Source: Eubacterium sp.
GTDB taxonomy: Bacteria; Bacillota; Clostridia; Acetivibrionales; DSM-1351
DNA: 64,000 nucleotides
Direction of reading: 5' to 3'
Assembly: GCA_029266335.1 (NCBI GenBank)
Contig: JAQSXC010000018.1
Span: 1-64,000, forward strand
Positions 39,339-59,371 of this stretch are shown piece after piece. Numbering within the stretch: position 1 is the first letter of the stretch; every line of letters begins with the position of its first letter. The translations under genes were made by a program, and so were the position numbers. The notes under the pieces were generated by a model, which did not search any database, was not told the origin of the DNA, and saw nothing but the letters and a program-made list of their open reading frames with translations.

Positions 39339-40169
39339 ATGGTTTTCTCAGACGCAGAGAATTTTTTTAGCAATAGGGCGGCGATTTTTCTGTCAGCTAT
39401 GAGCTATCAGACATATCCGCTTTTTCTGGAAGGAAAACTGATCCTGCCAAAAGGTTTTGAATTGCGATATACCATCAGAGCCCTTGCAAACGTTGAAAAC
39501 CCCTCGGAGGAAGTTTTCGGATTTATTGCTGAAGCAAAGGACATGATCGTTATTGCATTTAGAGGATATGCCTCATATCCGGCAGACCTTATCGCAGCAT
39601 ACGATATACTTCAGATGGAATATCCTTACGTAAGAGGCGGAGGGAAGACCTCTCGCGGCTTTACATGTATTTATACATCGGCAAGGGACGAAATAATCGG
39701 CGAATTATCAAAACTGCCGATTACAAAAAAATTATATATTACCGGGCATAACTATGGAGGAGCAATAGCTACGTTGGCTGCATTGGATATTGCCGTGAAT
39801 ACAAGGTTTATGAATTCCGCCATATATACTTATGCAAGTCCCCGTGTAGGAGACCCTGCCTTTGTTTTCAAATTCAATAAAGAGGTAAGAAATAGTATAA
39901 GGATTTATAATATTCATGACTCCTATGCGACTTTCCCGGATCCGGTATATATGCCTCCATTCACTGAAGAAGGCTTGTTTTATCAACATGTAGGGCTTGA
40001 CTACCCTATCTCTTTCCAGCTTAACAATACTCCGCGGAACGATTCCATCAGCTGCTATTTTAATTATCTCGGAAAAACGGATCAGTATTTTACAAAAATG
40101 CTATGCAGTGAAAATCCGGGTTTTTGTCCCGATACAAAAATTTGCCTGCCTTTTCAAAAAACATGTTAA
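39339..40169 (+). CDS. Class-3 lipase-fold protein lacking the nucleophile Ser (pseudo-lipase)
   Basis: YITGHNYGGAIATLAAL aligns with YITGYSLGAALVVLAAL of the next gene; Cys-rich C-terminus CSENPGFCPDTKICLPFQKTC. Confidence 0.75.
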   Translation: MVFSDAENFFSNRAAIFLSAMSYQTYPLFLEGKLILPKGFELRYTIRALANVENPSEEVFGFIAEAKDMIVIAFRGYASYPADLIAAYDILQMEYPYVRGGGKTSRGFTCIYTSARDEIIGELSKLPITKKLYITGHNYGGAIATLAALDIAVNTRFMNSAIYTYASPRVGDPAFVFKFNKEVRNSIRIYNIHDSYATFPDPVYMPPFTEEGLFYQHVGLDYPISFQLNNTPRNDSISCYFNYLGKTDQYFTKMLCSENPGFCPDTKICLPFQKTC

Positions 40170-40203
40170 TGTTTACAGCTGTGTATGTAAAAAGGAGTTT
40201 CAT

Positions 40204-41052
40204 ATGATTATTCCGGAAATCAATTATTTCTTTAACAGTAAAGATGCAATAATGCTGGCGGCTATGTGCCATCAGTCAAATCTGATTTTTGAAGAGGAAG
40301 AGCTGATCCTTCCAAAAGGCTTTATACTCCGGCATACTATTTGTGCTTTAGCCGGTGTGGAGGAACCTGAAGAGGAAGTATTCGGCTTTATAGCAGAGTC
40401 ATTTGATAAAATAATTATTGCTTTCAGAGGAACCGATTCCTTTAAGGATAATGAATCCGATCAGGACCTGTATCAGGTACCCTATCCTTTTGTCGGAAAT
40501 GCCGGTGAAACCCACCGTGGTTTTACTTGTATTTATCAGTCTGCAAGGGACCAAATTATAAGCGAATTAAACAGGCTTCCTGGACAAAAAAGACTTTATA
40601 TTACCGGCTACAGTCTGGGAGCGGCTCTGGTAGTTTTGGCCGCGCTGGATATTGCTGTGAACACACGGTTTGAAAATCCCATAGTGTATACATATGGCAG
40701 TCCCCGTACGGGGGATCCTGTCTTTGCTGCCCGTTTCAACCAGACAGTTGAAAATAGTATCCGCATATTTAATGTTCATGATGTTATTCCAACAATACCG
40801 GCCCGGAAATACCCTCCGCCATTCACAAAAGAAGGCATATATTATCAGCATGTAAGGAGAATGTATCCTGTCTCTTTTCAGCTGAACAGTATTGCACGTG
40901 CACATTATATAGGCTGCTATTTTAATTGTTTAAAGAAAAGTAATCCTGACTTTGCAAAAGCATTATGTGCTGATAACCCCGGTTTCTGCCCCAATACTGA
41001 AATATGTGTTCCATTCATTGGCATATGCAGTGAAAATGAATTTTTTAAGTAA
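40204..41052 (+). CDS. Class-3 lipase-like protein, tandem paralogue
   Basis: GYSLGAA elbow, FRGTDS, YGSPRTGDPVFA, NVHDVIPTIP; Cys-rich C-terminus CADNPGFCPNTEICVPFIGIC. Confidence 0.8.
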   Translation: MIIPEINYFFNSKDAIMLAAMCHQSNLIFEEEELILPKGFILRHTICALAGVEEPEEEVFGFIAESFDKIIIAFRGTDSFKDNESDQDLYQVPYPFVGNAGETHRGFTCIYQSARDQIISELNRLPGQKRLYITGYSLGAALVVLAALDIAVNTRFENPIVYTYGSPRTGDPVFAARFNQTVENSIRIFNVHDVIPTIPARKYPPPFTKEGIYYQHVRRMYPVSFQLNSIARAHYIGCYFNCLKKSNPDFAKALCADNPGFCPNTEICVPFIGICSENEFFK

Positions 41053-41077: not shown

Positions 41078-41111
41078 TTTGAGAGTTTTTTGAGAGTAAT
41101 TTTGATAAAAT
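41078..41111 (+). promoter_or_regulatory. Putative SARP direct-repeat operator and -10 upstream of the hybrid kinase gene
   Basis: TTGAGAG (41079-41085) TTTT TTGAGAG (41090-41096), 9 bp, TAAAAT (41106-41111). Confidence 0.6.
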
Positions 41112-41170
41112 ATATTTGTGTTTTCAAAAAATCATATTAATAATATATTAAAGGTTTAGGTCAATTAGAG

Positions 41171-44100
41171 ATGCGTGTCAATGTTAAGCAGCTTACAAGC
41201 TCATTAATAACAGTGGGTGTTATTTTTATTATTTTTTTCATCCTGTATTATATTACTTCACCTTTTTCAGAAAAACCCAAGGTGGAAAACGGCAGGCTGG
41301 ATTTGTCAAACTGGGAGTTTGTGGAGGATGGGGCGGCTGCAATAAGCGGTAGCTGGGAATTTTATCCGCAAAGACTCCTTTCCCCCGATAAGCTTCCAAC
41401 CGGCAGTACGGATATGATTATAGTTCCCGGACAATGGGAGAGCAAGACTTCATTATCTCAGCCGTCAAAAGGAAGTGCTACATATAATGTTAAAGTAATA
41501 CTGCCTGAGCATCACAAGCATTTAGCTTTAAAAGTGCAGAATATATGGATGTCCCATCGCCTTTTCATCAATGGAAAGCTGGTGAAGGAAATGGGCAGGC
41601 CGTCAGAAAGCCCGGACAGCAATGTTTCAAAAAATACTCCGTATATAGTAATAATTGATCCTGCCGATGAACTTGACATATGCATTCAGGTAACAAATTA
41701 CAAGTATTATACGGGTGGAATTGTCCATCCTGTTCTGCTGGGTGATGTGGAAGAGATGGAAAAGAGTGTGCAGTTTTCAGTGGGAAGTGACATGGCCGGC
41801 TTTTTTCTATTCCTGTTGTTTGGCGTATATCATATTCATATTTACCAGATGAGAGGTAAGGAACCAACTTATTTGTATAGTGGAATATACATGATATTAA
41901 TGTCATTTACAATTATAACCAGCGGAGAAAAATTGCTTATGAAATTGGCAGACAATATGCCATTTGAAGTTTTATACAGATTTCAGGATTTATGTATTTC
42001 CTTGAGTTTTCCTATTCTGGTGTTTTTTATACGGAGTTTTCAGTCGGACACTATTAACCGGAGAATGTCGAGGATCATAATAATACCCACGATGATATAT
42101 CCGGTACTGGTATTGGCTGCACCATTCAATTTCTATATAGAGTTAAAACCCTATATAACCATATACGGAAGTATAATGCTGTTTTTTCTGGCATTCCGTC
42201 TTACATATATACTTGTGAGGAATCAGAAGAATCAGGCTGACAAGATTTTCAGCAATGAATTAAAATATGTGGTTGTATGTATTGCATTTATTGCAGTAAT
42301 GTTCTTTGACTCAATTATTTACTATTCCAGTATGAGCAGCAATAATTTGATAGGAAGACTAAGCCAGATGGGGTTTCTGATTTCGTTGAATCTTTTAATG
42401 GCAAGGCGCTTTACCAATAATGTGAATAAAGTTGAAGCCTTATCGGATAAATTGGAAAAAGCCAATAAAATCAAAGATGAGTTTCTTTTCAGAACCTCCC
42501 ACGGACTGAAATTCCCACTGCAGGAAATCAGCAATATAACAAACCATCTGATGCTGGATGAGCAGACAGCACTTACTCCGAAACAGAGAAAGAACCTTGC
42601 TCTTATGCTGGATACTTCAAAAAAACTTTCTATTATGGTCAATGACATGACAGATGTTATCAGGCTTAGATATGGAGATATCAGTCTTAATATTACAACC
42701 GTTGATCTGTATGTGGCCTGTCAGATAATATTTCAGCTTCTTTCTTTCAACGTTAAAGGCAGGGAACTGAAACTTGTAAACTCCATAGATTCCATGACCT
42801 TTGTTGAGGTTGATGAAAATCGACTAAGACAGATATTGTATAATGTCGTTTCAAATGCAATAAACGACTGTCAATATGGTGTTATTGAAGCCAGGTCAGT
42901 AGTAAAGGATGGAGCGGTACTGCTTGCCTTATCCATTGCCGGAATAGGTATAAATGGAGAAGAATGGGAAAAAAAGTTTGAAGATCCGTATGAGACCGAT
43001 GCCATAATTGGAAATCCTAAAAACGGTTCAGGCCTGGGACTGTATATAAGCAGGCAGCTGGCAAGAAAAATGGGTGGAGACATTTGGATATCCGAATTGG
43101 AAGTGGGTACAGGGGTTATAGTAAATGTACGCCTGCCGGAAGGAGTGACCGCAAATACTCTTAAAATCAATAATGAAAATGATTTTGATATAGTTAATTC
43201 CGCTGCGACCGGTCAGGAGAAGCCATATTTAAGAGACAAACCTGAGAAGGAATTGAAACATATTCTGATTGTTGACGATAATGCCTCAAATATTCATGTT
43301 CTGTCATTGATATTGGAGGAGGACTTTAAAATAAGTGTTGCCCATAATGGAAATACTGCACTGGAGATGGTTAAAAACAACAGAATAGATATTGTGATTA
43401 CTGATATGATAATGCCTGGTATGTCAGGAATTGAACTTACACAAAATATTCGACGGTATTATTCAGTTATCAAACTGCCGGTGATTATTTCCATAATACG
43501 CAGCAGTACGCAGGAGATTGAGCTTGCATACCAGGCAGGAGCCAATGATTATATTTCTCTGCCGTTTACAGCCGAAGAGGTTAAATTTAAGGTCAAGGGT
43601 GTACTTCAATTAACCGATGCGATGGAAATGGCACTCCGGAATGAAAATGCCTTCCTGCAGGCTCAGATTAAGCCGCATTTTATTTATAACGCCCTGAGCA
43701 ACATAATAGCTCTTTGCTATGAAGATGGAGAAAGGGCAGCTGAGCTTCTGTCGCTGCTAAGCAGATATTTGAGGTTTATATTCCAAACCGATTCATCTTT
43801 CAGTAAGATTTCTATCAATCAGGAGCTGGATATTATTAAAGCATATGTAGAAATAGAAAAACTGAGGTTTGGAGAAAGGCTGCAGTACGAAGTCTATGTT
43901 GATGAAGAACTTTTAGAGGAGGAGCTGCCGATTCCGCCTTTGCTGTTGCAGCCCTTGATTGAGAATTCCATCCGCCACGGTCTTTTTAACAAGATCGGTC
44001 AGGGTAAGGTGTCATTAAGCATAACTCAGGGAGACGGATTTGTTTATATGGTTGTAGAGGATGACGGGGTTGGTATTGGTGAAGATCAGTTGTATAGGCT

Positions 44101-44239
44101 TATGAATGAAGACGGAGGAAAAGGTGTCGGAATAAAAAATATACGTAAAAGAGTTGGCATTTATTCCGGAGCATCATTTTCAATTGATTCGGAATTGGAT
44201 AAAGGTACGAAATGTAAACTTTTTTTACCAAAGGCTTAA
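41171..44239 (+). CDS. Hybrid sensor kinase: 7TMR-DISM extracellular/7TM region, HisKA-HATPase, REC, LytS-type His_kinase/HATPase
   Basis: LSNWEFVEDGAAAISGSWEFYP; TM block; SHGLKFPLQEI; GSGLGLYISRQLARKMGG; HILIVDDNASNIHVL; QIKPHFIYNALSNI; PLIENSIRHGL. Confidence 0.88.
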   Translation: MRVNVKQLTSSLITVGVIFIIFFILYYITSPFSEKPKVENGRLDLSNWEFVEDGAAAISGSWEFYPQRLLSPDKLPTGSTDMIIVPGQWESKTSLSQPSKGSATYNVKVILPEHHKHLALKVQNIWMSHRLFINGKLVKEMGRPSESPDSNVSKNTPYIVIIDPADELDICIQVTNYKYYTGGIVHPVLLGDVEEMEKSVQFSVGSDMAGFFLFLLFGVYHIHIYQMRGKEPTYLYSGIYMILMSFTIITSGEKLLMKLADNMPFEVLYRFQDLCISLSFPILVFFIRSFQSDTINRRMSRIIIIPTMIYPVLVLAAPFNFYIELKPYITIYGSIMLFFLAFRLTYILVRNQKNQADKIFSNELKYVVVCIAFIAVMFFDSIIYYSSMSSNNLIGRLSQMGFLISLNLLMARRFTNNVNKVEALSDKLEKANKIKDEFLFRTSHGLKFPLQEISNITNHLMLDEQTALTPKQRKNLALMLDTSKKLSIMVNDMTDVIRLRYGDISLNITTVDLYVACQIIFQLLSFNVKGRELKLVNSIDSMTFVEVDENRLRQILYNVVSNAINDCQYGVIEARSVVKDGAVLLALSIAGIGINGEEWEKKFEDPYETDAIIGNPKNGSGLGLYISRQLARKMGGDIWISELEVGTGVIVNVRLPEGVTANTLKINNENDFDIVNSAATGQEKPYLRDKPEKELKHILIVDDNASNIHVLSLILEEDFKISVAHNGNTALEMVKNNRIDIVITDMIMPGMSGIELTQNIRRYYSVIKLPVIISIIRSSTQEIELAYQAGANDYISLPFTAEEVKFKVKGVLQLTDAMEMALRNENAFLQAQIKPHFIYNALSNIIALCYEDGERAAELLSLLSRYLRFIFQTDSSFSKISINQELDIIKAYVEIEKLRFGERLQYEVYVDEELLEEELPIPPLLLQPLIENSIRHGLFNKIGQGKVSLSITQGDGFVYMVVEDDGVGIGEDQLYRLMNEDGGKGVGIKNIRKRVGIYSGASFSIDSELDKGTKCKLFLPKA

Positions 44240-44275
44240 TGGAAAATTTTTAAGAATAACTCGGGAGAAGTATAA

Positions 44276-45391
44276 ATGTTTTCAGTAATACTTGTTGAGG
44301 ATGAGATTCATATTTTGAACTATATGAAAAAGAAGCTGGCTGCATCCGGTGTTTTTCAGGTAAAGGAAGCATTTTCTGATCCGGAAAAGGCACTGGAAGG
44401 GTTCGGTGAAATTATGCCGGAGGTTGCTTTTCTGGATATAGAAATGCCAAGAATGAACGGTATAGAATTGGCAAAAAGGCTTATTGCAAAAAAGCCCGAC
44501 CTTAGAATCATCTTTACCACCGCTTTCGAACAGTATGCACTGGATGCTTTCGGAGTGGAAGCTGTGGATTATCTGATGAAACCTGTAGGAGATGAAGATA
44601 TTGCTCGGGTTATAAAACGCCTGAAAAAAACTTCTTTAGCCAATATAGAGCCTAAAGCGGACTTATGGGGTCATAAGATAAATTCAGTGAACTGTTTTGG
44701 CCGTTTTGAAGTATGGGACAAGGATAACAGATTGGTAAATTGGCCCACAAGAAAGTCGGAAGAGCTGTTTGCCTATTTTTTGGTGAATCAGGGCAGGTAT
44801 ATTTCCAAGTGGGAGCTTTTGGAGCTTTTCTGGCCTGAGGTGGAGACCGAAAGAGGACTTAACAATTTATATAATACTGTATATAGGGTTAAACAAGTTC
44901 TTAAAAAATTACCTTCAACAACTCAGGTGCAAAAAATTAATGAAGGATATATACTCTTAGGTGATGAATTTTTATCGGATATTGGAAGCTTTACAGGTTT
45001 TGTTTCAAAATATGAGAATAATCCTCAAATGCCTGTTGACAGGGCTGAAGAGATATATTTTACATACGCTGCTCCTTTATTCGGACTACAGGATTATGCA
45101 TGGAGTATCTCCTTGCAAAAATATTTCGCAGTCTATTTTAAGAAATTATGCCGTAAATTACTCCAGGGTTACTGGGAACAAAAATTGTTTGAAAAGGCAG
45201 ATAAGGCCATTCGACATTATTTAACACAGCATATTGAGGATGAAGAACTTGTTCTGGAATGGCTTGAATTGCTTAAAAATTGGGAAGGCAGGGAAAAAGC
45301 AGAAGAGGATTTTAAAAAATGGCTCAATGAAAAGCTTAGGGAAGCTGATCTGCCGGTTTTAGGAGAGCTGATCCCAGAGTCCGATTATTGA
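44276..45391 (+). CDS. Response regulator with REC and SARP/BTAD-type DNA-binding region
   Basis: SVILVEDEIHILNYM...VAFLDIEMPRMNG...DYLMKP; INSVNCFGRFEVWDKDNRLVNWPTRKSEELFAYFLVNQGRYISKWELLELFWP. Confidence 0.85.
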   Translation: MFSVILVEDEIHILNYMKKKLAASGVFQVKEAFSDPEKALEGFGEIMPEVAFLDIEMPRMNGIELAKRLIAKKPDLRIIFTTAFEQYALDAFGVEAVDYLMKPVGDEDIARVIKRLKKTSLANIEPKADLWGHKINSVNCFGRFEVWDKDNRLVNWPTRKSEELFAYFLVNQGRYISKWELLELFWPEVETERGLNNLYNTVYRVKQVLKKLPSTTQVQKINEGYILLGDEFLSDIGSFTGFVSKYENNPQMPVDRAEEIYFTYAAPLFGLQDYAWSISLQKYFAVYFKKLCRKLLQGYWEQKLFEKADKAIRHYLTQHIEDEELVLEWLELLKNWEGREKAEEDFKKWLNEKLREADLPVLGELIPESDY

Positions 45392-45499
45392 TTTTATGAT
45401 CTTACTAAATTTAATCTATTTCAATTCATTCAATTTTAGTTCATTCTATTTAATGTATTCTATTCTATTTTAATTTTATCATATTCTGTATTCATTTGG

Positions 45500-45521
45500 C
45501 CGGGGCTACCCCGGTTTTTTT
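45500..45521 (+). terminator. Rho-independent terminator
   Basis: CCGGGG-CTA-CCCCGG followed by TTTTTTT. Confidence 0.85.
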
Positions 45522-45591
45522 ATTGTCTAGGAAAGTTAAGAAAAGTGGCTTTGCCACATTTGTTCCTAACAAATTAATACTTTATGTCTTA

Positions 45592-45626
45592 TTTGAGAGT
45601 TTTTTGAGAGATATTGTTGGTAAAAT
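45592..45626 (+). promoter_or_regulatory. Putative SARP direct-repeat operator and -10 upstream of the protease/giant-protein operon
   Basis: TTGAGAG (45593-45599) TTTT TTGAGAG (45604-45610), 10 bp, TAAAAT (45621-45626); core identical to the site at 41078. Confidence 0.6.
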
Positions 45627-45643
45627 CAGAGAAAATCTGTGTG

Positions 45644-45680
45644 ATAAGAAAAACAAAGGAACTCCCTTTGTTTTTCTTAT
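45644..45680 (+). promoter_or_regulatory. 16-bp perfect hairpin in the predicted 5' leader of the protease operon
   Basis: ATAAGAAAAACAAAGG-AACTC-CCTTTGTTTTTCTTAT; lies between the putative promoter and the GTG start at 45711. Confidence 0.65.
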
Positions 45681-45710
45681 GTTTCTTATTTTAAGGAGGA
45701 ATAGGGATTT

Positions 45711-46376
45711 GTGAAAAAAATGTTCAAGAGTTTTTTGTGCTTGGTTATGGCGCTGTTCATAACCTTGGCCGGAGGAAGCTTTATCGGGGCGAAGGCTTCG
45801 GATATGCAGGAATTGACTGCAGACCAGATATATAAGTCACATTCTGCCTCAATATTCTATATGAGAGTGCTGAAAGAGGACGGGACATTGAAAACTGTTG
45901 GAAGCGGATTTCTTATAGCAGGAGGAAAAGCACTTACAGCTTTCCATGTGGTGGAAGGCGGAACCTCTTATGAAGCAGTTTTTGATGACGGAAGTACCAT
46001 CAGAAATCTAAAAATAATAAAAACCAGTAAAGATAGTGATCTGGCTCTTTTAGCAATGGAAGCAGGGTCCCGTTCAGGCCTGGAACTGGCAGCAGCTGAA
46101 GCTGAACATGGACAAAAAGTCTTTGCACTGGGGTACCCCATGAAGGCAACAAAAATCATAACCGAAGGTATTATAAATACTCCGGAAGCCGAAATAAACG
46201 GTCATAGCCGTATTCTTACTTCGGCCCAGGTGGCCAGCGGCATGTCCGGAGGCCCGCTGCTGGACAGGATGGGTTATGTGACAGGGCTTATATCAGGTTC
46301 CTTGAGAAATATGAGCAATATCCATATATGCATTTCAGCAGAAAATATAAAAAGCTTTATAGGAGGAGATGAATGA
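45711..46376 (+). CDS. Secreted trypsin-like (S1C/HtrA-type) serine protease without an obvious PDZ domain
   Basis: Signal peptide; triad motifs TAFHVVEG, DSDLALLAM, ASGMSGGPLLD; GTG start with AAGGAGGA. Confidence 0.8.
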   Translation: MKKMFKSFLCLVMALFITLAGGSFIGAKASDMQELTADQIYKSHSASIFYMRVLKEDGTLKTVGSGFLIAGGKALTAFHVVEGGTSYEAVFDDGSTIRNLKIIKTSKDSDLALLAMEAGSRSGLELAAAEAEHGQKVFALGYPMKATKIITEGIINTPEAEINGHSRILTSAQVASGMSGGPLLDRMGYVTGLISGSLRNMSNIHICISAENIKSFIGGDE

Positions 46377-46378
46377 TA

Positions 46379-49300
46379 ATGAAGAAGAGGGTTTTAGCAG
46401 TTTTGCTGGTACTGGGCATGCTTTTTCAGGTATTTCCCCGGTGGCCGGGGGCAAATGAAGTATATGCAGCTGCAGGGTATGCGGATATTTATATACCCAG
46501 CGGAGGAAAGCTGGTAAATGGGGAAGATTTGGGACCTGTATCGGCAGGTAGTTCAGTACCTCAGGGCAGTGCATTTCCCGGCTGGATAATGGAGGAAGAG
46601 GATGCCGAAAACACAACACCTCCAAATTTTATGGATGATTCCTGCGATTCCTTCAGAATGTTCAGCAGCGGTGCTCAAGGTACGGCATGGTCGTCAGATG
46701 ATGGTGATGCACCTGCTGCTACCGGAATATATAAAATTGACGGGCATTTCTATGGAAGAATATCGGTTTCCGAGAATCCCGTCTTAAAGAGGCTGGCTGA
46801 AGGAGGGCAGGCCTATTTCATGGTGAGAGTATACATGCTGGATTCCAGCGGAGACCATGATGCTGCAATATGGGCTTATACCCAGAAGTCGGCATGGTAC
46901 AATGCAGGGGGAGATAACAGGCCGGGATATGGAACCACAGCATCATACTGGACAGCTGTTTCAAAAGCTGATGACGATGATGACAGGCATTATGCAAATT
47001 CACAATGGATGAAACTTGATTTGGATGATGTTTTAATCATAGAGACTGAAACCCATGGAGCAGATACTCATGTTGATGGGATACAGCTCTATTTTGCGGA
47101 CATAGCTCCTCCGGCATATAACGGCAATATACTGACTACTGACGGTACCGTAAGACATAACGATCAGCTGGATAAGAATGAGCTGTTCCTGAAACAGGGA
47201 CAGTATATCAATATGGCTCTGAACTTCAGTGAACCTGTTTTCCCGACCAATGCGGCATCAGCATCAGAAAAGGTCGGTAACACATACAGCTTTATAAGAA
47301 CTGAACTTTTTAACAACAGTGGTGCAGACGGCTATACTCCGTCAACATATTATCTTGAAAGCGCCGATGCAGGTTACAACGGGTTTACTCCGGGCAGTAT
47401 CAATTTAAATGACAGTTCCAGAAGCACCTTCAACATGAAATATACAGCCGCAGCTAACGACAGCACGGGAAATACGCCGCTGGATCCCCTGAGACTGACA
47501 GATTTAACTGCTTCCGAGGAAAAGCCAAGTCTGATACAGCGGATTAATGACGCTGATTTCATAGACGGAGCTGGAAATCCTGCCGTGGATATAACCGGTA
47601 TAGGGACAGTACCCTTGGGAAACAATGACTATCCTTCAGGAACTTATAGAACAATTATAGATGCAAGACCACCAAAATATTCTCCCGTAAAAAACGGAGT
47701 GCAGCCCGATATTCTTACGCAACTTGTTCTGAACAAAGGTGATACCATTAACTTCACAGTGAATTTAAATGAAGAGGTTGTAAGTGCCATCAATCCTGCC
47801 GATAATGTCAGACTGGCCTTCAACAACGGGATGCTTGCGTCCTACCAGAGCGGCAGCAACACCGATACGTGGAAATTCAGCATGACTGTTCCTTCCGGTA
47901 CATCGGTTGAGACAGCACTACTGGAAACAACAGCTTTGGAGCATTCTGCAAAAACCGGTGATGGAAATGTCATATGGGATTATGCGCACAACTATCTTAC
48001 AGACGCTGTTAAATCCATAGCTGAAGCCAACCTGTCCATAGATAATACAGCTCCCGATTTTAACTATACATATAAAAATGAAAATGGAAATGCAGTAGCT
48101 GCAAACCAGTATGTAAAAAGCGGAAACATAGGTATCAACGCCTTTGATCCCGATATTAAGGGACAGTCCAGCAAAGGATTATACAGAGCAGGCAGCGGTT
48201 CGGGGCTTGTATACTACCTGTGGAGCAAAAGTCCGGCAGACCCCTTTGCCGTGAAAAACGATAATTTTGCAGCCGTCAAAAGATATTCACTGGCAACAAA
48301 ACAGCCATGGGAAGACCTGTATTCCTCAGGCTATAATGATATAAACCTCAGTGTGGCAAATAACGGAAGTACAATAGAGCTTCCCGCGGAAGCAGCCGGA
48401 AAAAGCGAGAACTGGTATCTGCATACCTGGACTGCGGACATGACCTGGGATTCGGCCAGGCAGCTCATGCAATATCAAAAGGGTAGTGCCATGAGAGCAG
48501 ATTATCTTAGCACGCACCCTGATGCAACACCGGCCGAGCAGGAGACAAATTTCAGAATGTATATCCTGCCTTTTGTTTCACAGTATGATGATATTGTACA
48601 GTGGCCTGTGGATGACTTCAAACAGGATGATTCCAACTGGATACACAAATGTGCCGAACTCAAACTGGATAATGACCTTCCGGTATTACAGGTAAAAGGT
48701 ATTATCGATAATAAAAGTGATAATGTTAAAACCACCATATCAGCTACTGATATGACTTCGGATATTAAAGACCATAAAATTTCATATCAGTATGTAAAAA
48801 AAGGTGAGCTGCCTGACGAAGCCGGCTGGCTGGAGGCAATCTTGAGCGGTTCCGGTCAGGCTGTGATAGGAACTCTCGAGAATCCGGCAATAGAAAATGG
48901 CGGAAAGTACGAAATATATGCCAAAGCCGAAGATCTGGCAGGAAACACCATAACCTCAAATGTTGGGGAGATAGATGTCCTGGTCATAAACAAAGTATTT
49001 GAAAGCTACGGTGACAAGTATGTCATAAATAAGGGGCCTGATTTCACAATATGCGGACTGCCTTTAGATAATCTGGAATATCAATATACATATTCTTCGG
49101 AACGTCCTGCCTCCACAAGCTGGAGCGCTATTGGTGTTGACAGGCGTATATCTGCCGAATTAAAGGGGGAGACAGGGTATACCTATGACATACCTGCCGA
49201 CCGGTCAAAGAATGGAACGGTATATTTGCACATAAAGGCAAAGCAGGAGGATATGGACAGATACTACTATTATTATAAAGAATATAAATTTGACCATTTG

Positions 49301-51700
49301 CCTCCTGTGGTTACCTTTAGCACAAATGGGTATCTCTATCCGCTTCCGAAACAGACTACTCTAATTGCAGTTGAAGACTCCCTTGTGGATTCTTCAGGAG
49401 TGGCTGATGAAAATATTCATTATCAGTGGCTAAAAGTAGAGGAAGGCAAAGAGGAAGCCGCTCCTGACAGGGACTCCCCCAACTGGGTACAGGCACCCTC
49501 CGACGGAAATCTGGAAATAGAGGTTGACTCAAAAAGCAAGGATGGGAATTACCGTCTCTATGTCCATGTAAAAGACAGCCTGGGCAATGAAAAAATATAT
49601 AATAGTGGGCTTTTTGCAGTATATTATTTAAGCCATGAACCTCCTGTAGGCAGTGCAGGACTTATTTATACAACAGGAAATGAGACTGATGGTTATACGG
49701 CAGTCCTGAAGCTGGAGGTGGATGTGCCTTCGAAGGTGGGGTATTTTTATTCGGTATCTTCAAACGGAGGAGAAAACTGGAGTACCTGGCAGCCATACAC
49801 CAATTTTGTCGGAGTGCCTGTAGACACAGTGGATACAGATAAGCTCAAACAAGCTATAAAAGTTAAATTCAGAGGCTATTTTCTTGATAATATCAGTGAA
49901 ATATACTCTCCGGACATAAATATTGAGGACTCACCGGCCTATGCTCTGGCCTCACTTGAAAAGATCGAGCCTGTAAGAGGAGGGGCAAAGAGAAGTGATG
50001 GCGGTGTAAATGACGGGCTGATAATTAATTTCACCCATACCGGAGGAAAAGCAATTACGCCTACCGGGGCTAACCCTGAAATGCCGGAAATACTTGAGGA
50101 AAACAAGGCCTTCAGGATATACCGGAATGGCAATTATACTTTTAATGTTGCAGATGGCTCAAAGACAGCTGTTGTGTCAATAGTGGTATCAAATTTTGAC
50201 GAGACGCCCCCAGTTGCCACTATTAAGTACTCGACCATTAAAAAGACCAGTGCCGATGTGATAGTGAGCCTTAAGTCCAGTGAACCCATACGCATCACAA
50301 ACCTTGATTCCAATAAAAAAATATTTGAAGAAAACGGTGAATTCATCTTCGAGTTTGAGGATGCAGTGGGCTTGACCGGTTCGGCTATCGCGCTTGTAAA
50401 CAATATTGACAAAACTCCGCCGCAAGCGGAAATCAAGCTGCATTACAATGATGAAGATATGAAGGCTCTTATTAGATACAACGGTAAAACCATTGTGGTA
50501 AACAGTTCGGGAAAGGGCTACAATGCAGCAGGGGAGTATGTCTTTTTTGATTACCCTACAGCTGAAAATGTCATAGCTTCCAATATGATATTAGCCGAGG
50601 TTAAAGCAAAGGACGGAGAAGAAAAGGATTTCAAAGTAATTAATAACAATAAGGGAAGTAATGAAGAAACAATTGTTATAAAAGAAAATGGAGAAGTATG
50701 GTTCAGGCTGTCGGACAATGCAGGGAATACAGCGACGATAACTGCCGGGGCCATATCTGCCGTGTGTGCTGCACCACCAAAGGTGACAAAAACCATACTG
50801 ACCAGAGTTGACGACAATGGAAGCCCTCTGGCAGAAGACAGGATTGTAACAATAGATGGAAAGGAATACTCAAAAGGGAAGGTAAGGGTAAGTTTTGAGC
50901 TGGAAGCTTCACCTTATGATATTCCTGAAAATACGGTTATGATAGGAAACAAACCTGTTAAAGATTTTTCAAAGGATTATTCCATAAACAGGCAGGAAAA
51001 GCTTGTTCTCATTGACAGGTTGGGGAATAGAAACAGCCAGTTGTTTAAAATAGATGGACTGGATAATACTCCTCCCGAGATAAAATTAAACAAGCCCATG
51101 ACTACTATTATGCAAAACATAGCCGATTTTGATTTTACTGTGGACTTTGGAGGCTATTCTGTATCAGATAACCTGTCTGCTGATGAGGATTTGAAGGTTG
51201 AAATAATGGAAGAAATTCTGGTAAACGGACAGCAGAAGGAAATAAGCTTTGATCTGTCCAGACCCGGTAAACACATAGTCAGGTATATAGTAACAGACCA
51301 GCTTGGAAATAAAGGTTTTGCGACACAGCAAGTATATGTCAGGGCTTCGGATGATATGTTTATTCTGGCAAATGATCTGCCTCTTTCACCGGATGAAACC
51401 GAAACCGCAATACTGAACACCAACAAGGTAACGTTCAAGGTATATAACTACGATATCATGAAGCTTGGTAAGGACAAGACAAAAACGGTTAATGAAAAGG
51501 GAACCTTTGATATATTGTACTACACAGGATTGTACAGAGAGGGTCAGATGAAATATGTTGCTAAAAAGCTTACTTACAAGCAACTGCTGGAAGGCAATTT
51601 TACCGTTGAGCTTCCGAAAGCGGGCTGGTATACCGTTATTGTCAGGAACCAGGAAAGAGAAAGAGTATATACTACACTGCTGGTAAGCAGAGTTCAGTAA
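46379..51700 (+). CDS. Giant secreted protein with Ig-like repeats, unknown function
   Basis: Signal peptide; recurring D-x-T-P-P / D-N-T-A-P domain-boundary motifs (SIDNTAPDF, FDETPPVATI, IDKTPPQAEI, LDNTPPEIKL). Confidence 0.8.
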   Translation: MKKRVLAVLLVLGMLFQVFPRWPGANEVYAAAGYADIYIPSGGKLVNGEDLGPVSAGSSVPQGSAFPGWIMEEEDAENTTPPNFMDDSCDSFRMFSSGAQGTAWSSDDGDAPAATGIYKIDGHFYGRISVSENPVLKRLAEGGQAYFMVRVYMLDSSGDHDAAIWAYTQKSAWYNAGGDNRPGYGTTASYWTAVSKADDDDDRHYANSQWMKLDLDDVLIIETETHGADTHVDGIQLYFADIAPPAYNGNILTTDGTVRHNDQLDKNELFLKQGQYINMALNFSEPVFPTNAASASEKVGNTYSFIRTELFNNSGADGYTPSTYYLESADAGYNGFTPGSINLNDSSRSTFNMKYTAAANDSTGNTPLDPLRLTDLTASEEKPSLIQRINDADFIDGAGNPAVDITGIGTVPLGNNDYPSGTYRTIIDARPPKYSPVKNGVQPDILTQLVLNKGDTINFTVNLNEEVVSAINPADNVRLAFNNGMLASYQSGSNTDTWKFSMTVPSGTSVETALLETTALEHSAKTGDGNVIWDYAHNYLTDAVKSIAEANLSIDNTAPDFNYTYKNENGNAVAANQYVKSGNIGINAFDPDIKGQSSKGLYRAGSGSGLVYYLWSKSPADPFAVKNDNFAAVKRYSLATKQPWEDLYSSGYNDINLSVANNGSTIELPAEAAGKSENWYLHTWTADMTWDSARQLMQYQKGSAMRADYLSTHPDATPAEQETNFRMYILPFVSQYDDIVQWPVDDFKQDDSNWIHKCAELKLDNDLPVLQVKGIIDNKSDNVKTTISATDMTSDIKDHKISYQYVKKGELPDEAGWLEAILSGSGQAVIGTLENPAIENGGKYEIYAKAEDLAGNTITSNVGEIDVLVINKVFESYGDKYVINKGPDFTICGLPLDNLEYQYTYSSERPASTSWSAIGVDRRISAELKGETGYTYDIPADRSKNGTVYLHIKAKQEDMDRYYYYYKEYKFDHLPPVVTFSTNGYLYPLPKQTTLIAVEDSLVDSSGVADENIHYQWLKVEEGKEEAAPDRDSPNWVQAPSDGNLEIEVDSKSKDGNYRLYVHVKDSLGNEKIYNSGLFAVYYLSHEPPVGSAGLIYTTGNETDGYTAVLKLEVDVPSKVGYFYSVSSNGGENWSTWQPYTNFVGVPVDTVDTDKLKQAIKVKFRGYFLDNISEIYSPDINIEDSPAYALASLEKIEPVRGGAKRSDGGVNDGLIINFTHTGGKAITPTGANPEMPEILEENKAFRIYRNGNYTFNVADGSKTAVVSIVVSNFDETPPVATIKYSTIKKTSADVIVSLKSSEPIRITNLDSNKKIFEENGEFIFEFEDAVGLTGSAIALVNNIDKTPPQAEIKLHYNDEDMKALIRYNGKTIVVNSSGKGYNAAGEYVFFDYPTAENVIASNMILAEVKAKDGEEKDFKVINNNKGSNEETIVIKENGEVWFRLSDNAGNTATITAGAISAVCAAPPKVTKTILTRVDDNGSPLAEDRIVTIDGKEYSKGKVRVSFELEASPYDIPENTVMIGNKPVKDFSKDYSINRQEKLVLIDRLGNRNSQLFKIDGLDNTPPEIKLNKPMTTIMQNIADFDFTVDFGGYSVSDNLSADEDLKVEIMEEILVNGQQKEISFDLSRPGKHIVRYIVTDQLGNKGFATQQVYVRASDDMFILANDLPLSPDETETAILNTNKVTFKVYNYDIMKLGKDKTKTVNEKGTFDILYYTGLYREGQMKYVAKKLTYKQLLEGNFTVELPKAGWYTVIVRNQERERVYTTLLVSRVQ

Positions 51701-51741
51701 CTATAACCTTCCGTTATCAAGTATATAAAGGAGATATGGAA

Positions 51742-54700
51742 ATGAACAGAATTATAAAGAAAGTGATTGCAGGTATACTGGCAGTCCTGGTGCTGATGGG
51801 AGGCATGCCTCTTGACACATTTGCACAAGCAGTCTCCAAGCCGGATACTACAACCATTGAGAACGAATTTGTGCGTGTTGCAGTGGACAACTCCAGCGGA
51901 AGGTACAGTATACGTACCGTAGACGGGCAGCCCATAAGGAAGAAGGATGGCAATGTAGAGACCATCTTTGAGGGAGAAAATCCCGAGACCTCCTTTACAA
52001 CCTTCAAAATCGACGGGACGGAATACATATTCGGAAATCCGTATAAATTTGCTGTTGACTGGTTTTCAGAAGTATCCGAGCCAAAGGTTGTGAAAAATAA
52101 TAACGGAACAGTAGACCTTATTACTGTATGGAGAATCAAGGGTATAAAAATAAGTCAGATTATCACCCTGATGACAATTGATGATAAGGAGAATGCCGGA
52201 AATGTGCGAATTTCCTATAAGGTTGACAATGACACAAAATCTACCGTTGAGGTGGGAACCAGGGTACTTCTGGATACTTCCGTAGGAGGAAATGACGGAC
52301 CGGCCTTCCAGATAGGACAAAATTATCTGCAGCCCTTGTATACTGAAAGAAAGCTGGTACATGAGCCTGCCGAGCTTGGGTACAATAAAAATAATCCTGA
52401 GCAGGAACAGCAGTACAACCTGCACAAGCTGCCTCCATACTGGGTTATGAGAGACAAACTGGATCTGAGCAATCCTCTGGCTACCAATGTAATGGCTTAC
52501 GGCTTCAATAACCTTTTCGAGGGTGGAATAAACATAGTTGATAAAATGGTTGTGGGCCATTGGAATGGACTGGCAAACTCAAAATGGGATTACGAGCCTA
52601 ACGAGAATCTTGATTTTACCGATGACAAAAATGATTATGGAACAGCCGATACGGCGGTAGCATATTTCTGGAACCCTGCCAATATTTTATCCGGTGCAAG
52701 TAAGACCTTTGAAGTTGTATATGGACTTGGTGAAATTGTTGTACCTGACAAGGTGTTTGATGTGAGATTTCTGGACACAGTACAAAAGTTGGACACAAAT
52801 GATGCCGGAACAGCATACAGGGAAGATGGAATATTTGACATAAATGTGGAAATAGAAAACCTTGCCATGTTTGATATGGAACACAGCAAAATGAATGTTA
52901 CCTGTAAATTGGAAAACGGATTGGTTTTTGTTGATGAACAGGGTAACGAGCTGGGAAGTTCCAGTAAAAGTCTGGAAATCAAAAAGAAGATACCTCCGGA
53001 AGATGCAGCTAAAGGAGTGGAGGTTATTACCTATAAACCCGGAGAAATTGTCACTGCCAGCTGGAAGGTAAAGGCAAAGGGCCGTCCCTGGCCCGTTACA
53101 CGCCAGTATATGGTGACGGTGAGCAGTCCGGAGACCGAAAAAAAACTCAAAAGCAAGCTGGACAGTGCAGGTAAAGATGAAGAAACGGAGATACGCGCGA
53201 TCTATGAAGCCTCCAAAGCTAATTTTGTATTTCTGCCTGCAACAGGTGAACTAAAGTCAACGCTTGTGTATGGTATGACGCCTGAAGAGGCATATTATGC
53301 CGATGACAAATACATTTCAATAAATATATCCAATATAGAAGCCTATAATGTGGGAAGCAAAGTACAAGGTACATCTCCTAATTTTAATCTGTTTATTCAA
53401 AATGTGAAAAATGGTGACAGGTACAGGGTACCTGTGACTGATTCCGTAATAACACAGCCTATGGGAAATGGCCTTGTGGGTGATATGAAAATCACTTACA
53501 GGGGTGGAGAAAAGGTAGATGAAAACGGGAATACCGTAGAAATTTTGTCAAATGGACAACTGCCACTGGGAGAATACAGGGTGGCTCTGGATTACAAGGA
53601 CAAGTCCGACCCGGAAGTAGCACAGGCGCTGAGCTTTGAAACCGAACAAACCTTAAGTATTACTGAAAATGAAGAAAATAGAGTAAGGCAGGCAAAAATA
53701 ATAGCAGTCTATAAAAAGGTGCTGGATTTGCAGCAGAATGACCAGGAGGCAATGGATACACTGGCCGAAGTGCTTCCAGATGACTATGACGGGTTGAATG
53801 GAGCGGAGTTTACGGCAAAGAAGACCCGTGACATGGGCATTGTTGCGGCTGCAAAAACGGCTGTGGTTTCTGCCAGCAAGCTGCTGGATCCAGGGCTAGA
53901 CATAGCCTCAGCAATGGATATTACAGCGGTACCGGTTTATGCTATGAAAGCCTTTAACACAGAAGAGGAATATGAAGAATTCAAGGCGGAATTTGAAGGG
54001 GACGAGGAAGAACCGGGATACATAGGAAGTGGTAAGGATGACGGAGAAGAGCCTACGGATGAGATACTTCTGGAAATCAGAGGAATGATTGTTCAATCCG
54101 GTGAGGGAGAAAATGCACAATTTACCGTTGATACCAAGACCGAGCCTGCCATTATCAACAACAGTGTGGCATATTCCGGAAAAGAGCTTACTTTTTCAAA
54201 GGGTGAGTTTCCGCTTGCAGATATAGTTGGTCTCGGAAGTGATACCCCGTTTCTGGACGCTCTTTTTGTTAAGGGGGACGGCAGTCTGAGTGTAGCCAAC
54301 AGCGGATTTGTATTTCATAAAGGGGAATGGTCCCTTGATTTTTACAACAGCTTTGATAAAACCCTGGGTGAGGGTTATAAAGTGCCTGCAGGAGAAATGG
54401 AGTGGGAAAAGGGTGAGAATCCTGAAGATGATACTCTGAATGGAAGCTTGCAATGGGCATGCGGTCAGGTAGGGGATGCGCTCAATCCTTTCAGGACACT
54501 GCTTATTTCAGAGGTATATTTCAACAAGCATAGCCTGTTTGCTCCGCCAAGCTTTTCAATCAATGGTTTCGGGCTGAAATTCAATGATTTTATTCTGAGG
54601 CAGGATGCCGTTTCCTTTGGGGGAGCTATTTATCTTAAAATAATTAATGGTGAAATAAATAATGTTATGTTCAATGAAGAGGGGTTTGTGGGAATTGATG

Positions 54701-57700
54701 CAAAGCTCGCCCTGGAGCTCAAGGAAGATATGGGGCTGCTCCAGTCTCAGAAGTCCAAAGGCACCGATGAGGCAGGAAATGCTGTTGAAGGCGACACCGG
54801 TGACATCGGTGGAGAAATTAATATAACCCACTATGTGGATCCCGAAAAATATGATGTGTCAAACACGTATGGGCTCAGCTTCAATGCCGATCTTAAAAAT
54901 ATATTTGCGGTTAGCTGTGAGCTTTCTTTCAAGCAGGTAAAGGATGGCCGTATCCTGCCAGATGTAGTTGCTTTTGGTGCTGAACTCCCGGAACCCGGAA
55001 TATCAGTTGCTGCTGCTACCTATATTACCGGAATCAGGGCAGCCATAAGGGAATTGGCTGATACCATTGCAGGTGATGGAGAAGGAGTACCTCTGACAAT
55101 TGAGGCCGGTATCGATATGACCTTCGGAATCAGCCCTGCAACCTTCCTTGGGTCTGTAGATCTCACATTAAAGCGTACAGGTATGAAAATAGTTGGTAAG
55201 CTGGATCTTGGAGAAGATAATGATTCAGCGGTGACAATGCTTACCGAAGCTGTCTTGCAAACCCAGTGGGTAACCCCGTGGTTTATACGTGCAAAGGCAA
55301 CAATTGATGTGTGCGGCTGGGATATGATTATCGGAAAGGCTAGTATCTTCCTGGGGCAGAATCTGGAGAAAGACCGCATTGATTTTGAAGGCATGATAAG
55401 CGCTGCCGTCCAGGTTCCGGGAAGTGTACCTGTTGTTGGGGGAATGGAACTGGGCAGTGTTTGTGTGGGAGTCAACAACGATAAGGTATGGGGAAGTGTC
55501 GGCATACTTTTCATCAGTCTTGGAATCACTTATTATTGGGGGGGAGGAGTTGAATTTGGTACAAATGGTGAGATACTGAACAAGGATGCACTGATGTATC
55601 TTCTTGTGCAGGATCCACAGCTGGGACCAAGAGTCATGGCTATAGGCACCGGAGCAGAGGTGCTTGCAACCTCCTGGGAAAATGAGGAGACTGATAGGCA
55701 GGAAGTAAAATATCTGTCGGTTGGTGAAGGAATAGAATATATTGATGATGGTTCCCAAAGCCTGGGTATTGGCGGAATCACAACCTCGGACAATTCAAAG
55801 GTGCATTCCATACCCATGTCACAAGTATCGGGCAATGCTCTTATAGAAGTAGAATATGCTAATGTAAAAAGGCCGAAACTCTCTTTGAAAAGGGATGACG
55901 GCAGCACGTATGACATAATATACGGTGATATAAAGGACAATACCGCAAACGCTTTTGATCAGATCATAAAAGCAAAAAAAGCAGGAGAAATAAAGCATGA
56001 CGGTACAACTGTCAGTAAACAGGAGGAAGCGGAAAGTACGGATGTCACAAGAGTTTATATAGCCGTTCCGAAAGAGCAGCTTGCAGACGGCAGATGGATG
56101 CTCACCTCCGATCAGCAGATCAGGACAAGACTGTTCAATATACCTGTTCTTCCTGAACTCGCAGAAGTGTCTATCACTCCTGATAACAGTGATGAGAACC
56201 TGTTTAGGGCAGACTGGACTGTAAAAAATGCAAAAGCAGGCGATAAAGTAAATCTGTATTTATCCAAAGACAAGCTGGAATCTGTATCTGATCCGGATAG
56301 CGCAGTTGACCCTGGTCTTCTGATTGCAAAAGATATAGAGATAAAGGCAGAAAATATCGGACAGGATGGAATTGCAGCAGGACAAATAATATTTGATGTG
56401 AAAAAGATAGACTATCTGGGAGGTGCCGATATCAGGGGAATGCTGTCTCAAGGGAACTATTACCTGAGAGTCGAGCTGAGGTCTGACACAGCATTTTCAG
56501 CCAAATCTTCACAGCAGGCATTCAGGCTGACAGACAGTCTTGCACCGGAAGATGTGGAAAGCGTAGGACTGAAAGCTGCCGGAAACGGTGTTTTCCAGTT
56601 ATCCTTTGAACCTGTTGAAAGGAAGCCTGGACACGAAAACTATGAGTACAGCTATATTGTTTCTGCAAAGGACGAAAATGGAAATATCTACGAGCCGCTG
56701 GGAGAGATAATGTACACTGAGGAGCAGCTTCAGGACAATATTTCAGGCGGGGAATACCATTTGAACGTTGGTGGTTGGACCACAGTAGGAAAGCCTGAAA
56801 CTTATATTGACAAAGATGGTAAAATGCAGATTAAACGGGATGCCAGGGGCAACATCCTTATGGATAATGTCCAGGACAAATATACCGGACTGGAGTCCGG
56901 CAAGAAATACAGCATAGGGGTAACAGCGGTAAGTGTACCTGTGAAGCAGGATGATGCAAATCAGAATATGCATCTGGCGCAAACAATATATTCAGATACA
57001 AAATTGCTGCCCGTACCTTCCAAACCCAGGTTGACAATAAACGGAAACCAGCTTCCTGACAACAGGTATGATCTGATGGTAAATCAGAAGACTCAGGAGA
57101 TTATGGTTGCTTCAGATCAACCTGATGTGGTGGTTGAGGCTGTATGCGGTGATGAAAGTCTTGGAAGCTTCAGCCTTAATGACAGTGGAAACAGTGGGAA
57201 AATAAAGCTCTCCAGGCTTGATTCTGACGGAAAATACGCAATAGAATTAAAGGCAAGAAATACCGGGACAGGGGACTATTCTGTAACGGTACTGTATCTG
57301 ACTGTTGATACAATTTCGCCAATGATTTATTTGGAAGGTCCGGTACCGGGGGCACTGACAACTCCGGACGGAAACATAGCCATAAAGGGGAGAACGAACA
57401 ATGATGCAACTGTTACTGTTACAGATGCAGAGTCAGGAACAAGGCTGGCAACAATAACCCCAGAGAAGAGCGGCAGGTTTGAAAAACTGATAGCGGCAAA
57501 TTTATCAGCCAGAAAGGCAGTTTTAAAAATAGAGGCGGTAGATAAAGCCGGTAATTCAAACAGCACCAAAGTTGAAATTATAAACTCTAAATACAAGCTG
57601 CCTGTGAAGCTGCAGCTCAACCTGCCGGATGAAATAAAAACCGGCGAACCTGCAGCCGTGCTTGGTGCAACAGTGGAATATTCTGATGGAACTTCAGGGC

Positions 57701-59371
57701 CGGCAGCCGGCAGTAAACTTAATTACCATATATCTATGGGTGAGTCCAATGCAAAGGTGACCGGGGGAAAGCTTACCGCACTGAGAAAGGGTGCAGCAAT
57801 TGTGGAGGTAATATATGAACCCTGGGAAGGCCTTACTTTAAAGGATACCGATGCAGTAACAATTACTGCCGGAAAAACTTCGCCTCCAGACTCAATGGGG
57901 ACAATCAAGGCAGCTGCCGTAGGCACGGGAAAGGCCGGAGAGACAAGAATTGTGATCCAATCCTACGGAAATGAAGAGAAGATGAACGGCTGCGAACTGG
58001 CATACAGAGTATACACAGATGCAGCTCAGGCAGCCCTGCCGGTCTTCGATCAGGATATAACCTCCTGGAAGACATAAAGGTCCGCTGACCATATCAGGGG
58101 TTTCTACCGGGAATTCTGCCAATATACCGCTTTTATTAAACGGACAAAAGAAAGATAAACTGGCTACTGCTGATATAAAAACCGATAAAGGAACTGTGGC
58201 CATCACGGTGAAGCTTGACAGGAAGGCCGTGCTGGAAGCTGTGAATAACTCTGAAGACAGTGTGAGAACAATTCGGCTTCCTGTGGAAGGGGAGCTGGAC
58301 AGCCTGGATTTCCAACTGGATGCAGATATTATAAAATTCCTGGGTGAAAAAGAGATTACTTTGGAAGTTGAAACCGGGATTGGCTCATACATATTGCCAG
58401 CTTCCAAAATCATACCGGAAAATATGAAAAAACAGCTGGAAAACACTAACCTTAAGGAGGTAATGGTTTCAATAAAAATAGCTAAAGCAGAGGAAAAGTA
58501 TGCAAACACATTAAAGAAAAATCAAGCGAATAAGAAATTTCAGATTGTTACACAGCCTGTGGAATTTAGCATAGTTTGCAGTATAGGCGGGAAGGACCTT
58601 GAGGTGAAGTCCTTTGACTCTATTGTCAAAAAGCTGCTCCCTGTTTCTGAAAATGTTGACGGGAGAAAAGTAACTACTGCTGTAGTTATAGAACCAAATG
58701 GTGCCATAAGGCATGTACCTACAAAAGTAGTAATAAGGGAAGGAAAGTACTTTGCTGAGGTAAGCAGCCTCACAAACAGTGTTTATAGCCTGGTATATAA
58801 CTCAAGATCCTATGCGGACACAAAAAAGCACTGGGCTGAAGAGGCAATAAATGATCTGGCATCCAGAATGGTGGTAAATGGAGTGGCAAAAAATTTGTTT
58901 AACCCAAACAGGGATATCACCCGTGCCGAATTTGCCGCAATTATAGTAACAGCGCTTGGTCTGAAGCCCGGTGCAGGAACAGATAGCTTCAGTGATGTAA
59001 AAGCTGCCGACTGGTACGCCGGCTATATAGAGACAGCTACGGAATACAAGCTCATATCGGGTTATGGTAATGGCAGATTCGGGCCAAAGGATAAAATTAC
59101 CCGTGAGCAGGCAATGTCCATTATAGGAAAAGCCATGAGCATTACCGGACTGAAGATGGAATTAACATCCCAAGAAAGCAATGAGCTGCTTGCAGGTTTC
59201 TCTGATGGCAGTAAGGCGGCAGATTATTCAAAAAACAGCATTGCAGCCTGTGTGAATTCCGGAATTGTATCAGGCAGAAAAGGTAACTTTATAGCTCCTA
59301 AAGAGAATATTACCAGAGCTGAGGTGGTAATAATGGTCAGGAATCTGCTGAAGGAATCCGGTTTGATATAA
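51742..59371 (+). pseudogene. Giant secreted protein with C-terminal SLH repeats, split by a +1 frameshift near 58061-58077
   Basis: ORF 51736..58077 (frame 1) ends DQDITSWKT*; frame 2 is open from 58061 (KGPLTISGVSTGNSANIPLLLNGQKK...) and continues into ORF 58196..59371 with SLH motifs (FNPNRDITRAEFAAII, GYGNGRFGPKDKITREQAMSII). Confidence 0.75.

Follow-up and report, generated by a model that had tools for sequence, protein, structure and literature searches.

The locus analysed here raises the question of whether a two-component system directly controls the giant surface-protein operon beside it, and whether it does so through a short sequence that stands before both sets of genes. The locus lies on contig JAQSXC010000018.1 of an assembly from Eubacterium sp. 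(GCA_029266335.1; 356 contigs, completeness 92.6%, contamination 5.1%), of which the stretch from position 1 to 64,000 was analysed (hereafter the window). The operators, promoter elements, terminator and genes described for 41079–59371 of the window are on the forward strand.

Two identical copies of a predicted operator precede the two-component genes and the operon

The 19-nt sequence TTTGAGAGTTTTTTGAGAG is present in two identical copies, which can be read directly from the window at 41078–41096 and 45592–45610. It parses as TTGAGAG-TTTT-TTGAGAG, a heptamer direct repeat with a 4-bp spacer and an 11-bp period, placing predicted operator 1 at 41079–41096, 5′ of the kinase gene, and operator 2 at 45593–45610, 5′ of the surface-protein operon. 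Searching the window with TTGAGAGNNNNTTGAGAG returned these two exact matches, all others having three mismatches. We also ran the genome-wide scan that a preliminary description of this DNA had proposed, and found that TTGAGAG-N4-TTGAGAG matches exactly at just two places in the full genome of 5,522,997 bases, both in the window, with zero for the pattern read backwards as a reversed control.

Each copy is followed by a TAAAAT hexamer, which begins after a gap of 9 bp from the second heptamer on the kinase side (41106–41111) and 10 bp on the operon side (45621–45626). Both hexamers are preceded by TGn (TGA and TGG, respectively), making them extended −10 elements of a predicted kinase–regulator promoter and a predicted operon promoter. 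Neither is used by a promoter-like −35/−10 pair when at least 4/6 matches per hexamer and a spacer of 16–18 bp are required. The preliminary description had reported the paired 19-mer, the lack of a further pair in the window, and the two TAAAAT hexamers at these distances with no −35, and was accurate on each point, to the letter and the coordinate in the case of the 19-mer.

An intrinsic terminator, consisting of an 8-bp stem with six G-C pairs and then a T run, is located at 45498–45516, between the regulator gene and operator 2, so a separate transcription unit probably begins with operator 2. The predicted operon leader contains a 16-bp A/T-rich hairpin (ATAAGAAAAACAAAGG...CCTTTGTTTTTCTTAT; 45644–45680) between the −10 and the ribosome-binding site, for which no counterpart was found in the operon leader of the related genome G008, described below.

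The response regulator combines a receiver with a predicted SARP domain

The kinase gene (41171–44239) encodes a hybrid histidine kinase of 1022 residues, in which Pfam recognises a 7TMR-DISM membrane part, HATPase, a receiver and a LytS-type His_kinase module. Just 5′ of it, at 39339–41052, are two adjacent, related class 3 lipase genes. The response regulator (44276–45391; 371 residues) begins with a receiver (Response_reg, E = 1.5e-20), the phosphoacceptor of which, Asp54, is invariant in 18 relatives.

The preliminary description had assigned a SARP/BTAD-type domain to this regulator. With the window regulator alone, Pfam places the winged helix just under the cut-off and does not detect BTAD, which it recognises in 14 of the 18 aligned relatives. 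A family profile matches SARP domains across the whole C-terminal half, with E = 5e-15 to AfsR and 5.6e-14 to EmbR. Fold matches of the full-length model were dominated by the receiver, so the C-terminal half was folded separately (pLDDT 89.9). At E ≤ 1e-3, the PDB fold matches of this model are AfsR and EmbR only, with a TM-score on the query of 0.67–0.69 for five of six chains, and about 140 modelled residues beyond the winged helix fold like the BTAD half of AfsR. Judged by family profile and predicted fold, the C-terminal half is a SARP domain, an OmpR-type winged helix followed by an all-helical BTAD half, as had been proposed. With its N-terminal receiver, phosphoacceptor Asp and SARP domain, the whole protein has the composition of the COG3947 (SAPR) family, and the BTAD half is additional to the OmpR/PhoB type, which has a receiver and winged helix and nothing further. 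A search of genome contigs gave zero matches with the window regulator as the query, and with a three-ortholog alignment gave receiver-domain matches only, from many unrelated phyla.

The operon encodes a protease and giant surface proteins

The first operon gene (45711–46376) encodes a trypsin-like protease (Trypsin_2) of 221 residues with a signal-peptide-like N-terminus, and the second (46373–51700) a giant secreted protein of 1775 residues with an Ig-like stretch (Big_13). A giant surface protein follows (51736–58077; 2113 residues), which comparison with G008 indicates is frame-split from its C-terminal part, encoded in another frame at 58196–59371 and carrying three S-layer homology domains (SLH, E = 4e-38). 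Over its first 600 residues, the protein is 78% identical to the intact G008 frame. The break into two frames falls at 58040–58200, where G008 has a single open frame of 2582 residues; the break may be either a true frameshift or an error of assembly.

The predicted operators are kept where gene order and flanking sequence are not

A regulator ortholog (56% identity) was found in one of ten congeners, G008. The gene order there is swapped, with the operon 5′ of the kinase gene, not 3′ of the regulator gene. The G008 operon is preceded by the identical 19-mer (19/19), followed by a gene similar in size and N-terminus to the window protease. The kinase gene is preceded by TTAAGAG-ATTT-TTGGGAG (16/19), so that an operator 5′ of the regulator's own genes is present in both genomes. 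The −10 spacing is as in the window at both sites, and the flanks of window and G008 are at background, with 15/58 identical positions upstream of the boxes and 26–29 of 76 downstream.

In G339, from another family of the same class, a regulator 55% identical to that of the window is followed by TTGAGAG-AATT-TTGAGAG. This box, with a poorer −10 (TACACT), lies between the regulator and a 1681-residue secreted protein with YDG, ChW and Big_2 domains. Conservation of the repeats in orthologous loci, on which the earlier proposal had been made to depend, is therefore found in both G008 and G339. The 5′ part of the G339 kinase gene is absent at the contig start (L058 1–330), beside a transposase-like fragment, and the kinase may be disrupted.

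Across 11 genomes of the genus, TTGRGAG-N4-TTGRGAG with a −10 has five matches and the reversed pattern zero, two of the five being in the window and one each at the paralogous C28 locus of the source genome, in G008 and in G006. The G006 match (L258 position 13265; G006 C1:659264) is followed by 76 bp that are identical to the G008 operon leader at 65 positions. No operon genes were found after this box and no close regulator ortholog in that genome; the box, −10 and leader are a relic operon promoter. Homologous giant-protein operons with no adjacent gene for a receiver-plus-SARP (REC-SARP) regulator were found to have no such box. When two mismatches were allowed, box counts across the genus were not far above those of the reversed control.

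Period-11 boxes recur downstream of Firmicute REC-SARP genes

Class- and phylum-level searches yielded 61 REC-SARP regulator loci, in each of which we scanned 500 bp of sequence 3′ of the regulator gene. The heptamer length and −10 definition were fixed after the window sites were known, and the comparison between periods serves as a fair internal control. Exact heptamer repeats at period 11 are present in 23 of the 61 loci, and in 0–8 at any other period from 7 to 40; for exact octamers the counts are 19 and 0–4. Requiring a −10 at 7–12 bp after the second heptamer leaves 16 loci at period 11 and at most one at other periods, and allowing one mismatch as well gives 28 and at most five.

Dinucleotide shuffles gave a box with a −10 in a mean of 0.03 loci (exact) or 0.7 (one mismatch). 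The upstream regions of further genes at these loci gave 2/108 and 4/108, one of these matches being the box 3′ of the G004 kinase gene, where the order of regulator and kinase is reversed, and the opposite strand of the scanned regions gave 3/61 and 5/61. Grouped at 60% identity, the 61 regulators fall into 50 clusters, and a box is present in 15 of these (exact) or 27 (one mismatch). About half of the 61 loci have no recognisable box 3′ of the regulator. A gene of at least 700 codons starts within 1.1 kb in 18 of the 28 loci with a box, versus 9 of the 33 without. The arrangement of a box and a surface gene, with differing heptamers, recurs in many Firmicutes and suggests a widespread and apparently undescribed form of a switch hitherto studied in actinomycetes that produce antibiotics.

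The heptamers fall into groups, namely TTGAGAG (window, G008 and G339), TTGGGAG (C28, G298 and G635), TTGRTGA (G723, G654 and G633), TTGTTTAT (C107 and G450), TGTTCAG (G009, G004 and G573) and TTGGTAAG (G793 and G493). The source genome (G000) itself has three such systems, with TTGAGAG, TTGGGAG and TGTTTAT boxes, and all three of its full-length REC-SARP genes have a box downstream. The two further systems, on contigs C28 (L054; TTGGGAG) and C107 (L055; TGTTTAT), likewise pair a 7TMR-DISM kinase with a REC-SARP regulator, and each box is followed by repeat-rich secreted-protein genes that reach the contig end. The kinases are of the minimal 7TMR-DISM and LytS-type form in C28 and G298, and of a longer form in C107 and G339.

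Heptamer and recognition-helix sequences look related, although the relationship is statistically modest (Mantel test, r = 0.20, p = 0.008). After correction for receiver similarity the link is weak (p = 0.08), and we therefore do not claim a specificity code. The TTGAGAG and TTGGGAG boxes, one base apart per half-site in one genome, allow specificity and cross-talk to be asked about directly.

A proposed circuit and its alternatives

Sequence and comparison show the two sites, their conservation in orthologs even where the gene order is swapped, the SARP fold and, downstream of many related regulators, the combination of period 11 with a −10. Reading them together, we consider it very likely that the locus is a self-contained circuit, in which the kinase acts on the REC-SARP regulator, and the regulator on two operators, activating the operon and its own genes. 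The membrane kinase, with its 7TMR-DISM sensor, would phosphorylate the response regulator, two phosphorylated protomers of which would occupy the neighbouring heptamers of the repeat, separated by one turn of the helix. There they would cover the place of the absent −35 and recruit RNA polymerase to the extended −10. From operator 2 the regulator would drive the protease, the giant Ig-like protein and the giant S-layer-anchored protein, and from the identical operator 5′ of the kinase gene, the kinase and regulator themselves, as positive feedback. We infer that the regulator is phosphorylated, that it binds the sites, that it activates and does not repress, and that the feedback is positive. 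Weighing against this reading are the related loci with no recognisable box 3′ of the regulator, the poor −10 of G339, the failure to find a kinase-side box as a rule for the family, and the weak link of heptamer to recognition helix.

The sense of regulation is suggested by the register of the site. If the operon −10 is set at −12 to −7, the heptamers are calculated to span −40 to −34 and −29 to −23. This is the register of the afs box, where a pair of adjacent AfsR SARP protomers occupies two 11-bp repeats that run from −40 to −19 and overlap the −35, with contacts to sigma region 4 and polymerase (PMC10936776); activation by a phosphorylated dimer is proposed on this correspondence. The same position could be occupied to the opposite effect, since the box extends over the −35 region and each extended −10 can work without a −35, so that a bound dimer might block polymerase at the extended −10, with phosphorylation relieving or imposing the block. 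We regard such repression as unlikely, as the SARP proteins studied to date activate (PMC10936776) and the spacing from box to −10 is tightly kept at 9–11 bp across unrelated boxes, as expected for polymerase contact.

It is more doubtful still that another OmpR/PhoB-type regulator, encoded elsewhere, binds the boxes, with the neighbouring REC-SARP protein acting on different targets. PhoB-type proteins do recognise direct repeats of 11 bp at a comparable place, and the genome encodes dozens of response regulators, but in the genus the boxes accompany REC-SARP genes. Their frequency 3′ of these genes in the 61 loci is far above the controls, homologous giant operons with no REC-SARP neighbour lack them, and the sole match with a −10 outside REC-SARP loci in the genus is the relic promoter. 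Chance, or recent duplication of a functionless T-rich 19-mer between intergenic regions, has next to no probability: just two copies exist in the genome, but their flanks are unrelated (20/58 and 21/76 identity), the box is kept in orthologs with flanks at background, and the period-11 enrichment holds across the 50 regulator clusters.

For the circuit of activation proposed here, positive feedback on the kinase–regulator genes is put forward within the window's subfamily. The preliminary description had envisaged an autoregulated two-component system driving the adjacent surface operon, and the boxes kept before both promoters in G008 agree with this; autoregulation as a rule for the family was rejected, as a scan upstream of kinase genes, the window aside, gave one A/T-rich match (the kinase-side copy of G008 being too diverged for this automatic scan). 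More broadly, we lean slightly towards the view that SARP activators under kinase control are a broad class in Firmicutes, each connected to the giant surface gene beside it by its own heptamer, in several insulated copies per genome and with the recognition helix setting specificity, such that surface display would follow a readable operator code.

Comparison with known systems

SARP operators consist of direct repeats with a period of 11 or 22 bp, the 3′ repeat lying about 8 bp from the −10 (PMC10936776). The window sites, with their 11-bp period and 9 and 10 bp to TAAAAT, bear out the SARP-like geometry proposed in the preliminary description. The afs box of the afsS promoter in Streptomyces likewise has 11-bp direct repeats just 5′ of the −10, over the place of the −35 (PMC10936776), and AfsR shares the winged helix and BTAD by profile and fold. 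AfsR has NOD and TPR domains where the window regulator has a receiver, and the heptamers and phyla differ (actinomycetes versus Firmicutes). EmbR of Mycobacterium tuberculosis has the same SARP fold (TM-score 0.67 on the query), but carries an FHA domain (PMC10936776) and no receiver.

OmpR and PhoB share the receiver and winged helix with the window regulator. PhoB lacks the BTAD half, and full-length fold matches to this type come from the receiver and winged helix only. The pho box also consists of 7-bp direct repeats with a 4-bp spacer near the place of the −35, and the geometry of PhoB-type operators is similar, so geometry alone is not proof of a SARP, and the fold and the co-occurrence of box and gene carry that assignment.

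The full composition of receiver, winged helix and BTAD is that of COG3947-type (SAPR family) proteins, to which the window regulator belongs. In open-access papers, the literature covered, we found neither an operator nor a set of targets described for Firmicute members, and the novelty is accordingly provisional. What is known of SARPs concerns mainly their activation of antibiotic genes in actinomycetes; the targets in Streptomyces are antibiotic-pathway genes, whereas those predicted in the window are surface proteins. Firmicute two-component SARP regulators thereby gain a predicted operator, promoters and targets, and the way in which numerous giant, uncharacterised surface proteins are controlled becomes testable from sequence.
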